From the NCBI GenBank assembly GCA_028293685.1, contig JAQGOI010000326.1:1-8324 (forward strand): a stretch of DNA of 8,324 bases, written 5' to 3'. Shown piece by piece: positions 4,675-8,249 of this stretch; position 1 is the first letter of the stretch, and each line of letters begins with the position of its first letter. This stretch comes from Lysobacteraceae bacterium. Its GTDB lineage: Bacteria; Pseudomonadota; Gammaproteobacteria; Xanthomonadales; Xanthomonadaceae. The translations under genes were made by a program, and so were the position numbers. The notes beneath the pieces were generated by a model. The model did no database searches. It was not told where the DNA came from and saw only the letters and a program-made list of their open reading frames with translations.

Positions 4675-5169
4675 ATGGCCAAGCTGCTGGTCCTGCACGG
4701 TCCCAACCTCAACCTGCTCGGCACTCGCGAGCCGCAGGTCTATGGCAGGACCACGCTGGCGACCATCGACAGTGACCTGCGCCTGCGAGCCGAATCGGCG
4801 GGGCATTCACTGGCGAGCTTCCAGTCCAACGACGAAGGCGTACTCATCGATCAGGTGCAGGCGGCGCGCCAGGACGGCATTGCCTGCATCGTGATCAACC
4901 CGGCGGCGTTCACCCACACCTCCGTCGCCCTGCGTGACGCGCTGGCGGCGATCGCCGTGCCGTTCATCGAAGTGCATCTGTCCAATCCGCATGCGCGCGA
5001 ACCCTTTCGCCATATCAGCTACTTCAGCGATCTGGCGGTGGGCGTGATCAGCGGTTTTGGAGCCGACAGCTATCGCTATGCCCTGGATGCCGCCCTGGCA
5101 TTGATCGACCCGCAGTACCGCGCCGCGGCGAGCAGCCCAGGTGCACTTCAAGACAACCGCACTTCGTAA
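4675..5169 (+). CDS. aroQ: Type II 3-dehydroquinate dehydratase
   Basis: This cytosolic, dodecameric enzyme dehydrates 3-dehydroquinate to 3-dehydroshikimate, step three of the shikimate pathway to aromatic amino acids. Family motifs are all present: the N-terminal [21 protein letters not shown] with the catalytic tyrosine in the flexible lid, [31 protein letters not shown], and the substrate-binding [23 protein letters not shown] with the catalytic histidine. It closes with [19 protein letters not shown] chose the ATG at 4675 (MAKLLVLHG, 164 residues) over a TTG two codons earlier because it matches the family N-terminus. The ribosome-binding site is weak and lies next to a stem-loop. accB follows after 45 bases. 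aroQ-accB-accC is a common proteobacterial arrangement. Confidence 0.97.
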
Positions 5170-5202
5170 CAGTCGCACTTGGAAACAATTTTCACTTCGT
5201 AA
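5160..5202 (+). repeat. Pair of 10-base direct repeats between aroQ and accB
   Basis: CACTTCGTAA occurs at 5160-5169, where it includes the aroQ stop codon, and again at 5193-5202, just before the accB ribosome-binding site. The offset is 33 bases. It may mark a small local duplication. I see no clear promoter in this gap, so accB is probably read through from aroQ. Confidence 0.45.
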
Positions 5203-5214
5203 AGAGAGCGCCCG

Positions 5215-5691
5215 ATGGATCTTCGCAAGATCAAGAAGCTGATCGACCTGCTGGAGGAATCCAACCTCGCCGAGATCGAGATCAAGGAAGGCGAGGAATC
5301 CGTGCGACTGGCACGGACCCCGCGTGGCATCTACGCGCCAGCGCCACAGGCCTACGCGCCAGCGCCCGTGGCACCTGCTGCGCCGAGCATGCCGATGCAG
5401 TCGCCGACAGAGGCCGCCACCGGCGGGCATTCCAAGCCGCCGTCCGATATTCCGGAACGCGAAATCGTGCGTGCGCCGATGGTCGGCACGTTCTACACCT
5501 CGCCGGCACCGGACAAACCGGCATTCGTCGCGATCGGCCAGGCGGTCAAGGCCGGCGACACGCTCGGCATCATCGAAGCGATGAAGATGTTCAACCCGAT
5601 CGAGGCGGAGGTGTCGGGCACCGTGCTCAAGGTGCTCGCCGAAAGCGGCCAGCCGGTCGAATTCGACCAGCCTCTATTCGTGATCGGCTGA
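5215..5691 (+). CDS. accB: Biotin carboxyl carrier protein of acetyl-CoA carboxylase
   Basis: AccB carries the biotin that shuttles CO2 between biotin carboxylase (AccC) and carboxyltransferase (AccAD) in the first step of fatty acid synthesis. Residues 1-36 are the usual N-terminal helical segment ([20 protein letters not shown]). A flexible Ala/Pro linker spans about 40-80. The biotinyl domain (about 84-158) begins with [21 protein letters not shown], which contains the thumb loop typical of bacterial AccB. The biotin-accepting lysine is K124 in EAMKM, followed by [12 protein letters not shown]. The length of 158 matches the family. An AAGAGAG ribosome-binding site lies 6 bases before the ATG. 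The stop codon sits in the loop of an 11-bp hairpin. accC is separated from it by the S23-family gene. Confidence 0.98.
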
Positions 5692-5702
5692 GCCGATCAC
5701 GA
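5678..5702 (+). promoter_or_regulatory. 11-bp stem-loop with the accB stop codon as its loop
   Basis: TCGTGATCGGC (5678-5688) and GCCGATCACGA (5692-5702) are perfectly complementary, and the three loop bases are the TGA stop of accB. No T-run follows, so a standard Rho-independent terminator is unlikely. It could protect or define a 3' end, attenuate transcription, or lower downstream expression. It directly abuts the left heptamer array, starting two bases later. Confidence 0.7.
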
Positions 5703-5703
5703 C

Positions 5704-5731
5704 GGGATTCGGGATTCGTGAATCGGGATTC
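5704..5731 (+). repeat. Left heptamer array (four GGGATTC-type units)
   Basis: The units are GGGATTC, GGGATTC, GTGAATC and GGGATTC. The third, divergent unit provides the GTG start codon of the S23-family gene at 5718. The array is inverted relative to the one at 6120-6147, with 24 of 28 positions matching. GATTC-GT-GAATC also makes a small local palindrome around the start codon. Confidence 0.85.
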
Positions 5732-6155
5732 GGACAAGCAACGACCGCACGAGCGGCTGGACGTATGGCGCGACGCAATGTCGCTTGTCGAGTCGGTGTA
5801 TCGGATCACGGCCGGCTTTCCCGACAGTGAGCGACTTGGCTTGACGGCGCAGTTACGCCGGGCGGCGGTCGGCGTCCCCTCCAATATCGCGGAAGGTGCG
5901 GCACGTCGATCCAGGCTCGAATACATTCGTTTTCTCTCGATGGCGCGCGGCTCACTGTCTGAAATGGATACCCAACTCGAACTCGCGCATCGCCTCGGTT
6001 TCGCGGAACGCGAACCGGCGATAGCCGACCTGCTTGACCGTACCTTCGCGCGTCTCAACGCCCTGATTCGCTCACTCGATTCTTCCCAGCGCAGCGTCCG
6101 CGAGACGCCGTCGCCCTACGAATCCCCAATCCCGAATCCCCAATCCCATGCTTGA
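5718..6155 (+). CDS. Four-helix-bundle protein, S23 / 23S rRNA intervening-sequence protein family
   Basis: The 145-residue product has the family pattern: [20 protein letters not shown] (helix 1, 9-28), [20 protein letters not shown] followed by [10 protein letters not shown] (helix 2, 34-63), [20 protein letters not shown] plus LELAHRLGF (helix 3, 68-95), and [20 protein letters not shown] (helix 4, 101-120). Relatives are encoded in insertions in some 23S rRNA genes, and the diversity-generating retroelement protein Avd shares this pentameric fold. From memory, the solved structure of Xanthomonas campestris Xcc0516 belongs to this family. The molecular role is unknown; nucleic-acid binding is suspected. 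The GTG start lies in the left repeat array. The tail [11 protein letters not shown] is encoded by the right array and is not part of the bundle. The gene overlaps accC by 8 bases. The start is the least certain point; the next in-frame ATG (5778) would cut into helix 1. Confidence 0.88.
6120..6147 (+). repeat. Right heptamer array, inverted copy of the left one
   Basis: On the plus strand the units are GAATCCC, CAATCCC, GAATCCC and CAATCCC. The reverse complement reads GGGATTG/GGGATTC alternately. The last base is immediately followed by the accC ATG. These bases also encode the final residues of the S23-family protein, which explains its proline/asparagine-rich tail. Confidence 0.85.
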
Positions 6156-7515
6156 TAAAGTCGTCATCGCCAACCGCGGCGAGATCGCGTTGCGCATCCT
6201 GCGTGCGTGCCATGCGCTGGGTATCCGCACGGTCGCGGTGCATTCCACCGTCGACCGCAATCTCAAGCACGTGGCCATGGCCGACGAATCGGTCTGCATC
6301 GGTCCGGCGCCGTCATCCGACAGCTATCTCAACATGGCTTCATTGATCGCCGCCGCCGAGGTCACCGACGCGCAGGCGATCCATCCGGGTTACGGGTTCC
6401 TGAGCGAGAACGCCGATTTTGCGGAACGCGTGGAGCAGTCGGGTTTCATCTTCATCGGACCGCGCGCCGAAACCATCCGCCTGATGGGCGACAAGGTCGA
6501 GGCGATCCGCGCGATGAAGGAAGCCGGCGTGCCGTGCGTCCCCGGCAGTGGTGGACCGCTCGGCGACGAAGCCGCGACCAACATCGAAATCGCGCGCGGG
6601 ATCGGTTACCCGGTGATCGTCAAGGCCGCCGGCGGTGGCGGCGGGCGCGGCATGCGCGTGGTGCACACCGAAGCGCACCTGGCCAATGCCATCGCGACCA
6701 CCAAACAGGAAGCCAAGGCGGCCTTCGGCAACGACATGGTCTACATGGAGAAATTCCTGGAGAACCCGCGCCATGTCGAAATCCAGGTGCTCGCCGACGG
6801 CCAGGGCCACGCGATCCACCTGGGCGAACGCGACTGCTCGATGCAGCGTCGCCACCAGAAAGTCGTCGAGGAAGCGCCCGCACCCGGCATCACTGCGGAC
6901 CAACGCGCGGCGATCGGCAAGGTCTGCGTGGACGCGTGCATCCGCATCGGCTATCGCGGCGCCGGCACGTTCGAATTCCTGTACGAGAACGGGCATTTCT
7001 ACTTCATCGAAATGAATACCCGCATCCAGGTCGAACATCCAGTCACGGAAATGATCACCGGCGTGGATCTGGTCCGCGAACAATTGATGATCGCCGCCGG
7101 ACATCCGCTCTCGCTCAAGCAGAGCGATATCCATTTCGAAGGTCATGCCATCGAATGCCGCATCAATGCCGAGGATCCGGACACGTTCATGCCCTCGCCC
7201 GGCCTGATCCAGCATTTCCATGCGCCGGGCGGCCCGGGCGTGCGCGTCGACTCGCATATCTATGAAGGCTATCGGGTGCCACCGAACTACGATTCGATGA
7301 TCGGAAAACTCATCGTGCACGGCGCCGACCGCGAACAGGCGATCTGCCGCATGCGGGTCGCGTTGAGCGAACTGGTGGTCGACGGCATCAAGACCAATAT
7401 CCCGCTGCAGCAGCGCATCCTGTCCGACGGCGGCTTCCAGCAGGGCGGCCAGAACATCCATTACCTCGAAAAACGCCTGGCTGAACGCAAAGAGAAATCG
7501 CTGTCGATCGTCTGA
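6148..7515 (+). CDS. accC: Biotin carboxylase subunit of acetyl-CoA carboxylase
   Basis: AccC carboxylates the biotin on AccB using ATP and bicarbonate. The 455-residue sequence has the biotin carboxylase N-terminal domain ([20 protein letters not shown]), the ATP-grasp core with the glycine-rich loop [11 protein letters not shown] (160-170), and the C-terminal domain. Residues match E. coli numbering without a shift: K116 and K159 (ATP), E201/K202 and H209 (nucleotide), H236, E276 and E288 (metal), N290, R292, Q294, V295 and E296 (bicarbonate/catalysis), and R338. It therefore looks fully active. The ATG directly abuts the heptamer array and has no Shine-Dalgarno. The stop of the S23-family gene lies 8 bases into accC, suggesting coupled translation. 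A membrane-protein gene follows after 29 bases. Confidence 0.98.
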
Positions 7516-7544: not shown

Positions 7545-8249
7545 GTGATCGACTCAAGCCAGCAGGACCTCGAACGTCGCGCCGCAAAAACGCAGCTCGA
7601 CCACACCGTCATCAACATCGAGCTGACGTTGATCAGCATCATCCAGGGACTCGCGCTGGGCGTGCTGGCATCCGCGGCGACGCAGCCGCTGCTGCAGCTG
7701 CAATGGCAGACGTGGCTTTACGTTGCGACCGGGTTGGCGACGATCCTGGTGTTCTGGTCGCGATCGCTGGTGCACACGCTGTCGTTCATCGGCTGGCCAC
7801 TGGAATTCGGCCACACGTTTCTGTATTTCGCCGCAACCCTCATCGAAGCTGCGGCATTGACCCAGGTCACCAATCCCGAACACTGGTTCGCGCTCAACAC
7901 CGCCTACGCCGCTTGCATCTGGGGCCTGTACGCCTGGGATCTTCGGCTTGTCCGGCGGCATGCGCAGGATTTTGAAACGCCCGGCGAGCGCGCGCTGCTC
8001 GACGACGTCATCGCCGACCAGCGATTGAACATGCGCTGGCTGATGCCGCTGGCCGTCGCATTCCAGGGGTTCTCGTGGTGGCTGCTGCATGCCTATCCGC
8101 GGCACATGATCGAGGGTCACTGGCATCTGTTGCTGATCGCCGCGTCCCTCGGCTTCACCCTCCACTATCTCTACGGTGGCGTGCGGCTGCTGCGTCGGCG
8201 CCAGCACTGGATCCTCGAGCGCGCGACGCAAGAACGCGGGGGAGGCTGA
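7545..8249 (+). CDS. Unknown integral membrane protein with about six segments
   Basis: I do not recognise this 234-residue protein. It has about six hydrophobic stretches: 27-46, 56-76, 87-107, 114-132, 165-183 and 192-212. Short charged parts lie between them, and a longer soluble stretch spans about 133-164 (RLVRRHAQDFETPGERALLDDVIADQ). Several tryptophans and histidines lie in or near the membrane (WPLEFGH, FSWWLLHAY, GHWHLL). The C-terminus is arginine-rich. There is no signal peptide or known catalytic motif. The GTG start at 7545 is the earliest plausible one and lacks a clear ribosome-binding site. It sits 29 bases after accC and 1 base before prmA, so it is probably part of the same transcript. 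Being wedged between two core genes suggests a lineage-specific housekeeping or envelope role, but that is inference. Confidence 0.75.
   Translation: MIDSSQQDLERRAAKTQLDHTVINIELTLISIIQGLALGVLASAATQPLLQLQWQTWLYVATGLATILVFWSRSLVHTLSFIGWPLEFGHTFLYFAATLIEAAALTQVTNPEHWFALNTAYAACIWGLYAWDLRLVRRHAQDFETPGERALLDDVIADQRLNMRWLMPLAVAFQGFSWWLLHAYPRHMIEGHWHLLLIAASLGFTLHYLYGGVRLLRRRQHWILERATQERGGG

Follow-up and report, generated by a model that had tools for sequence, protein, structure and literature searches.

The S23 gene that lies between accB and accC and the two inverted heptamer arrays at its ends behave as a single insertion cassette, which probably represents the gene-carrying member of a two-part selfish element. 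The S23 protein likely recognizes the heptamer of its own lineage and would promote the spread of the element; we put the probability of this reading at about two in three. Comparison of sequences establishes that the block is present or absent as a whole, that its ends match, that S23 and heptamer are inherited together, that close relatives can have different types at one site, and that genomes are enriched in the arrays cognate to their S23. From these patterns we infer that S23 binds the heptamers and that the element is mobile. The new elements here are the link between S23 and the heptamers and the two-part relation; the repeats and the S23 genes of rRNA intervening sequences were already known.

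The cassette in the window

The window is the entire contig of 8,324 bases. Its repeats and the XCC0516 match of its S23 gene point to Xanthomonadaceae as the family. accB (biotin carboxyl carrier protein; 5215..5691, plus strand; ORF, PF00364) is the left neighbor of the cassette and accC (biotin carboxylase; 6148..7515, plus strand; ORF, PF00289, PF02786 and PF02785) the right neighbor. groES was read by eye on the minus strand at the left edge, with a 17-bp unit in about two copies upstream of it at 607-640. Pfam profiles identified dsbD, an HTH gene, cutA, a thioredoxin-like gene and aroQ among the remaining genes, and the ORF at 7545-8249 had no Pfam match.

The upstream array (5704..5731, plus strand) reads GGGATTC GGGATTC GTGAATC GGGATTC, and the downstream array (6120..6147, minus strand) reads GAATCCC CAATCCC GAATCCC CAATCCC, an inverted copy of the upstream array. 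Both were found by direct reading, by inverted-repeat search and by TRF, and the longest inverted pair in 5000-6800 has 29-nt arms that are 86% complementary and 386 nt apart. The own-pair alignment score of the two arrays is 21, compared with a maximum of 16 in 1,900 shuffles (50 for each of the 38 cassettes described below). The two inverted four-heptamer arrays of the preliminary description are therefore real.

The only gene identified inside the cassette encodes an S23, or four-helix-bundle, protein of 145 aa (5718..6155, plus strand). Its assignment to the S23/IVP family was upheld by PF05635 (109.3 bits, cut-off 33.8) and TIGR02436 (106.5, cut-off 24). It matches XCC0516 of Xanthomonas campestris (PDB 2GSC, E 8e-43), which among the sequences compared is itself closest (86%) to an S23 sited between accB and accC. 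The S23 core Q..R.......N.AEG is present, with Q45, R48, N56, A58, E59 and G60 invariant in 15 aligned sequences. There is also a match to the Avd family of diversity-generating retroelements (DGRs; phrog_3206, E 5.3e-6). A search of contig sequences with the window S23 protein returned only four relatives, and one of phage records gave no match at E 1e-5. In nine scanned ORFs of the window we saw no transposase, recombinase, reverse transcriptase, template or variable repeat. The lack of a transposase noted previously is thus correct for these ORFs, but gene-less array pairs occur elsewhere in the genome too.

The fit of the cassette between its neighbors is tight. The first array begins 12 nt past the accB stop and the second abuts the accC ATG. 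The GTG start of S23 (5718) is the beginning of the third heptamer of the first array, the C-terminal tail ESPIPNPQS is encoded by the second, and the frame with its stop codon (6153-6155) runs 8 nt into accC. The arrays were said to frame the gene; they do lie on both sides of it, but not outside it.

A perfect 12-bp inverted repeat with the accB stop codon near its center (5678..5702, plus strand) was found by inverted-repeat search just before the upstream array. Related cassettes carry the accB end again at this place, inverted. In G081 and G105 both arms share one change (GTAATCGGC), so the arms vary together.

accB-accC junctions across the family

We examined 149 genomes of the family, in 63 of which PF05635 was detected. 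accB was found in 147 (G042 and G129 gave no accB match), and all 147 junctions could be read. S23 is present at 38 of these and absent from 109. The S23-bearing gaps are 427-532 bp long, whereas those lacking S23 are ≤13 bp in 73 genomes, 14-60 bp in five and >60 bp in 31. The earlier proposal that arrays and S23 are one insertion unit agrees with these junctions.

All 38 acc cassettes have inverted period-7 arrays at both ends. Their heptamers fall into four types according to S23 lineage: GGGATTC, GGGAATC, GTGATTC and GTGAATC. The first five positions of the heptamer agree between the two ends in 37 cassettes, the exception being G141. Every one of the 38 has an own-pair match above the highest of the 1,900 shuffles, and re-pairing the ends among the cassettes 20,000 times never equaled their summed own-pair score. 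Arrays of four units predominate, both upstream (33/38) and downstream (31/38). In 37 of the 38 the earliest possible S23 start follows the accB stop by 10-28 nt, and in 26 the S23 stop overlaps with accC. Translation of S23 would begin within the first array and, at these 26 loci, finish within accC, so the operon probably tolerates the insertion.

RNA folding predicts pairing of the two arrays. On folding 5660-6180 of the window the two arrays are paired in both the MFE and the centroid structure (z -2.36), as is the 12-bp inverted repeat at the accB stop. In the MFE predicted for each of the 38 cassettes, an array has 16-27 of its 28 bases paired with its partner; when the downstream array is shuffled only four cassettes reach 14 paired bases. 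The predicted stem extends, in the median, from 5 nt after the accB stop to 2 nt before the accC ATG.

The acc cassette is patchy within genera, and S23 was found in three of nine genomes of the window's own genus. Reading the 38 filled and 109 unfilled junctions revealed no evident target-site duplication, the gaps being short and diverged, and no insertion between strains of one species was caught. None of the 109 S23-less gaps matches a scan for the GGGATTC type, but six hold an inverted heptamer pair of another or degenerate type. In G077, G127, G144 and G028 the heptamer of this pair is that of the S23 resident elsewhere in the genome, at ≥6/7 positions at both ends. That of G016 matches the resident heptamer at 6/7 positions with weaker periodicity, and the gap in G087 is an S23 cassette that has lost its middle and kept both arrays. 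A different element of 87-105 bp, with two strong hairpins seen by eye, lies directly after the accB stop in the S23-less gaps of genomes from several genera (G002, G119, G063, G130, G022, G062, G110, G030, G071, G095 and G073). This may be another repeated intergenic element.

Trees of the cassette and of its flanks differ in what they follow. The one built on DNA of accB and the beginning of accC tracks genus, requiring 45 changes for 45 labels where the minimum is 44. The S23 protein tree, built on 107 columns and strongly supported on only 10 of 34 inner branches, follows array type and not host; it requires four changes for five labels, which is the minimum, compared with a mean of 17 for shuffled labels. 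Close relatives can carry different types. The accB-accC flanks of G014 and G082 are 98.6% identical, but the gap only 68.5%; the corresponding values are 98.2% and 68.9% for G081 and G125, and 98.5% and 65.9% for G006 and G051. Pairs of the same type are mostly normal, e.g. G015/G057 (flanks 94.4%, gap 96.4%) and G051/G139 (98.2% and 96.2%), although G101 and G121 share one cassette type with flanks at 98.0% and a gap at only 82.4%. On the evidence of these alignments cassettes are exchanged, different types occupying one site in close relatives. Horizontal transfer combined with homologous recombination in accB and accC could account for such replacement. The dN/dS of S23 is 0-0.21 in 13 pairs, several of them with saturated dS (>1); judged by these ratios, S23 is under purifying selection. 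In view of this patchy, exchanged distribution we reject S23 as a conserved gene of the acc operon.

S23 genes and heptamer arrays at other loci

GGGATTC-type patterns miss the arrays of S23 genes outside accB-accC. A heptamer-blind scan finds many, with other heptamers. We therefore used a two-sided test for period-7 arrays, with ≥15/21 matches at lag 7 on both sides of the gene. All 38 acc cassettes passed it. Of the family's 47 S23 loci outside accB-accC, 23 passed and 24 failed; none of 688 random control windows passed. Three of the 47 loci came from the genus search; left out were L093-L095 (70-73 bits), which had no tblastn match to the S23 core of the window, a second fragment of the G117 gene and one G041 row below the cut-off. 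Among lags 4 to 12, lag 7 alone is clearly elevated. A looser test, an inverted match between the flanks of ≥20, is passed by 36 of the 47 loci and by 102 of the 688 controls. The heptamers at these loci include GGGACTC, GGGACCC, GGGACCG, TGAAATC and AGGGCTC, together with others.

The association extends well beyond the family. The 30 best-scoring Pseudomonadota loci divide into 16 that pass the two-sided test, TAGGCAG arrays among them, and 14 that fail, and two of four loci of other phyla pass and two fail. An S23 gene of Phycisphaerales lies between groES and groEL (genes confirmed by profile) with clear inverted AGGCACT arrays, and one of Euphemobacter has clear inverted GGGGACT/GGTGACT arrays; the inverted match is weak at an Algoriphagus locus and a second Phycisphaerales locus (17 and 19). 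On plasmids, tandem arrays are present on both sides of S23 in all twelve records studied (of 27, chosen from the top 18), eleven cyanobacterial and one from Gemmatirosa. Their period is 7 in eleven and 8 in Gemmatirosa (L320). Nine are clearly or moderately inverted, that of Gemmatirosa is ambiguous (direct score 34 versus inverted 30), and two are direct (L315 and L321); the last two are plasmids of Nostoc HK-01 and Pseudanabaena. Two plasmid S23 genes are opposite in orientation to the pair of genes that they split, nrdB/nrdA in one case and a secretion pair in the other, and two with arrays sit between cas6 and cas4. The co-occurrence of S23 and arrays proposed previously is thus common far from the acc locus.

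G077 and G121 have S23 cassettes of two heptamer types between carB and carA (names confirmed by profile). A search of sister species for an empty carA-carB site turned up different inserts, of 465-656 bp, in its place. In this genus (g6; L290-L298) the gap holds S23 cassettes in two species and other inserts in four, and with two cassette types and other inserts it looks like a second hotspot. At L019:1833-1875 of G077 the last codons of carA come from part of an array, giving the tail MRDPGPGTRGSEKAA; arrays can therefore turn into coding sequence of neighbors too.

Arrays without a gene are dispersed through these genomes, and we counted exact two-unit patterns of five heptamers in the 149 genomes. 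The counts are of arrays, not pairs, and include those of the cassettes themselves; the GTGAATC type was left out. Within genera that include both cognate and non-cognate genomes, the mean count is higher in the cognate ones in all 28 genus-by-type contrasts (GGGATT in 10/10 genera, GGGAAT 6/6, GTGATT 4/4, GGGACC 5/5 and GGGACT 3/3), although these are not mutually independent, since one genus can serve several heptamers, and the cognate assignments include the weak or mixed cases G041, G037, G141, G061 and G132. The top genome of the genus is cognate in 25 of the 28, not in all. GGGACC gives the sharpest match, with 19-162 sites (median 118.5) in six cognate genomes, at most 24 (G023) in other S23 genomes and at most two in genomes without S23. 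G077 has 136 such sites, compared with 0-15 in five congeners. For GGGATT and GGGAAT the correspondence is less strict, and hundreds of sites can be present in non-cognate congeners as well. G001 is an exception, with a GGGAATC cassette yet 636 GGGATT and 46 GGGAAT sites. Of 86 genomes without detected S23, seven have over 50 sites of these five types. The arrays are thus scattered, but their type tracks that of S23; scattering without any tie to S23, which would have refuted the earlier proposal, is not what we find. An exact search of the genome of the window for GGGATTCGGGATT gives five sites, all close to an inverted partner; of these five only the one between accB and accC encloses a gene. 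The genome also has 15 GGGAAT sites.

We examined 400 kb of each of G077 and G051 more closely. These contain 35 and 28 arrays respectively, compared with six and seven in the reversed control. GGGACC arrays number nine in G077 and zero in G051. Neighboring arrays within 700 bp are convergent in 8 of 12 cases in G077 and 5 of 7 in G051, and the convergent pairs are of a single type in 7 of 8 and 4 of 5. Of the eight in G077, two could not be mapped in G051 and two correspond to a pair of the same type. At groES-groEL there is an array pair of another type in G051, and at a further gap one array of another type. The accB-accC pair of G077 corresponds to an S23 cassette in G051, and the last to a 47-bp gap with no array detected.

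The same 800 kb bear on the idea that the arrays are generic repeats that frame any gene. Only one of 539 called genes passes the two-sided test, and none is framed by matching arrays; as none of the 688 control windows passes either, we reject it. The gene that passes is atpG (L250:18648-19511, G077), whose two arrays mismatch (inverted score 15) and are probably two separate elements in neighboring gaps. The S23 gene of G051 was missed by the gene caller, and passes with its own coordinates (16 and 16, inverted score 26).

Mechanism and alternative explanations

In the mechanism that we propose, S23 would recognize the heptamer of its lineage and promote the spread both of the cassette and, acting in trans, of short gene-less array pairs into gaps between neighboring genes. 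To our knowledge S23 has no catalytic domain or site, and the missing chemistry might be supplied by a host polymerase, nuclease or reverse transcriptase. XCC0516 was reported to form a pentameric ring (Lin 2006, cited in the available text of PMC4990558), and this together with the relation to Avd makes nucleic-acid binding by S23 plausible. Binding might be as such a ring, with one repeat per subunit; this is a guess from the comparison of four-to-five units with five subunits. In the acc mRNA, pairing of the arrays is predicted to turn the insert into a loop, bringing the accB stop near the accC start.

Tandem repeats are bound by protein rings such as TRAP. By analogy S23 could be a regulator that binds the heptamers as a ring on tandem RNA or DNA repeats, the arrays being its sites and the cassette autoregulated and moved only by ordinary gene transfer and recombination. 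The position of arrays right at stop and start codons (medians of 5 and 2 nt here; compare PMC4692102), the typical four units, the purifying selection on S23 and the correspondence of heptamer and S23 types are all consistent with this. Yet array number differs greatly among congeners, as for GGGACC in G077, and the pair in one gap can differ in type in a close relative, as at groES-groEL. S23 itself is found in either orientation between unrelated genes, and Rehm et al. report that the neighbors of the arrays are spread over functional classes (PMC4692102). We consider a regulator unlikely.

A further possibility is that S23 acts like Avd and partners a reverse transcriptase present elsewhere in the cell, with array pairs spreading through RNA copies much as DGRs copy their template repeat. 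The match to phrog_3206 and the predicted pairing of the arrays in RNA in the 38 cassettes point this way, as does the homology of PF05635 and Avd noted in PMC10053308. A homologous four-helix-bundle protein is indeed what the cassette shares with DGRs; in contrast to DGRs, neither a reverse transcriptase nor a template or variable repeat was seen in the window, and we regard retro-mobilization of this kind as rather improbable.

Alternatively the arrays might be host microsatellites, produced by polymerase slippage or as G-quadruplex repeats, that build up in any gap, S23 having merely created two more gaps. Heptamer arrays are abundant and intergenic in Xanthomonas and Nostoc with four units preferred, and convergent pairs are common in Xanthomonas (PMC4692102, from the text available); arrays are also present in some genomes without detected S23. 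Against this, no S23-less acc gap matches the GGGATTC-type scan and only six hold other or degenerate pairs, no called gene in the array-rich 800 kb is framed by matching arrays, and a lineage-specific heptamer that tracks S23 type is common to both ends. Microsatellites are thus a very improbable explanation. The preliminary description had suggested an old, conserved insertion domesticated for a role in fatty acid synthesis, and despite the location between accB and accC in 38 of 147 genomes and the selection on the reading frame in the 13 pairs compared, we find this scarcely credible, given the patchiness within genera, the different types within near-identical flanks of sister species and the S23 cassettes with arrays at carA-carB, groES-groEL, nrdB-nrdA and cas6-cas4.

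The two-part selfish element that we favor can be compared with several known systems. Intervening sequences with an S23 ORF are known in the 23S rRNA genes of Leptospira and Coxiella, and their mobility through this ORF has already been proposed (Ralph and McClelland 1993), both according to the available text of PMC4990558. As there, the S23 ORF would lie in a loop closed by inverted-repeat ends that pair in RNA, a 28-bp stem in Coxiella (PMC4990558, same text) and a predicted one here. The window insert differs in lying between protein genes of an operon and not in a 23S rRNA gene, in having ends of tandem heptamers that vary by S23 lineage, and in the gene-less cognate copies dispersed in the genome. 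The rRNA elements are further characterized by excision from RNA through RNase III.

The heptamers look like the same kind of repeat as the GGGNATC heptamers of Xanthomonas and Nostoc, treated as G-quadruplex repeats by Rehm et al. 2015, and share with them the preference for four units, the convergent pairs (70 in Xcc and 75 in Xac) and the location beside stop and start codons. In the available text (PMC4692102) those repeats are described as generally not associated with mobile elements, and S23 and four helix do not occur. They were defined there as at least two tandem GGGANTN units, intergenic, with one unit GGGAATC. GGGANTN describes three of the four upstream units and all four downstream units of the window; the remaining upstream unit, the third, reads GTGAATC. 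GGGAATC itself is absent, and both arrays overlap the S23 reading frame.

In REP/REPIN systems one RAYT gene is flanked by its own repeat and accompanied by many gene-less paired copies; RAYTs are HUH-type transposases and REPs are palindromes. The S23 gene is similarly flanked by its own repeat, with gene-less copies that mostly match the type of the resident gene. Unlike REP/RAYT, or a MITE and its insertion sequence, the full-length S23 cassette has no transposase, and the S23 arrays are tandem heptamers in inverted pairs where REPs are palindromes. Cyanobacteria have short tandemly repeated repetitive (STRR) heptamers, i.e. period-7 tandem repeats in intergenic DNA, which the arrays of the cyanobacterial plasmid S23 genes resemble. 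In the papers searched we found no connection of STRRs with S23. Eighteen IVP genes have been noted in cas loci, one of them between cmr3 and cmr2, with repeats not mentioned in the available part of that paper (PMC3936711). Among the best matches in the open-access literature, subscription papers and preprints being outside its scope, our search found no link of S23 genes to heptamer arrays.

It is an evenly balanced question whether four-helix-bundle proteins of the S23/Avd type act as the specificity factor for selfish intergenic elements that span phyla, each lineage reading its own heptamer 'code', carrying it at both ends and filling genomes with gene-less pairs. We know of no function for the S23 proteins, whose structure is solved, and of no explanation for the spread of the heptamer arrays of Xanthomonas and cyanobacteria. 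If the proposal is correct, these arrays and the S23-bearing rRNA intervening sequences would be one system, and two long-open puzzles would merge into one testable question. The elements would also form a class lacking its own transposase, and any 'four helix bundle protein' annotated between operon genes would be a probable insertion and not a member of the operon.

One genome of 2.3 Mb (G029) contains five S23 genes (L064, L070, L083, L085 and L091). Their loci have at least three different heptamers (TGAAATC, TGAAACC and GGGAAAT), and this genome is suited to the comparison of several S23 specificities in one cell.
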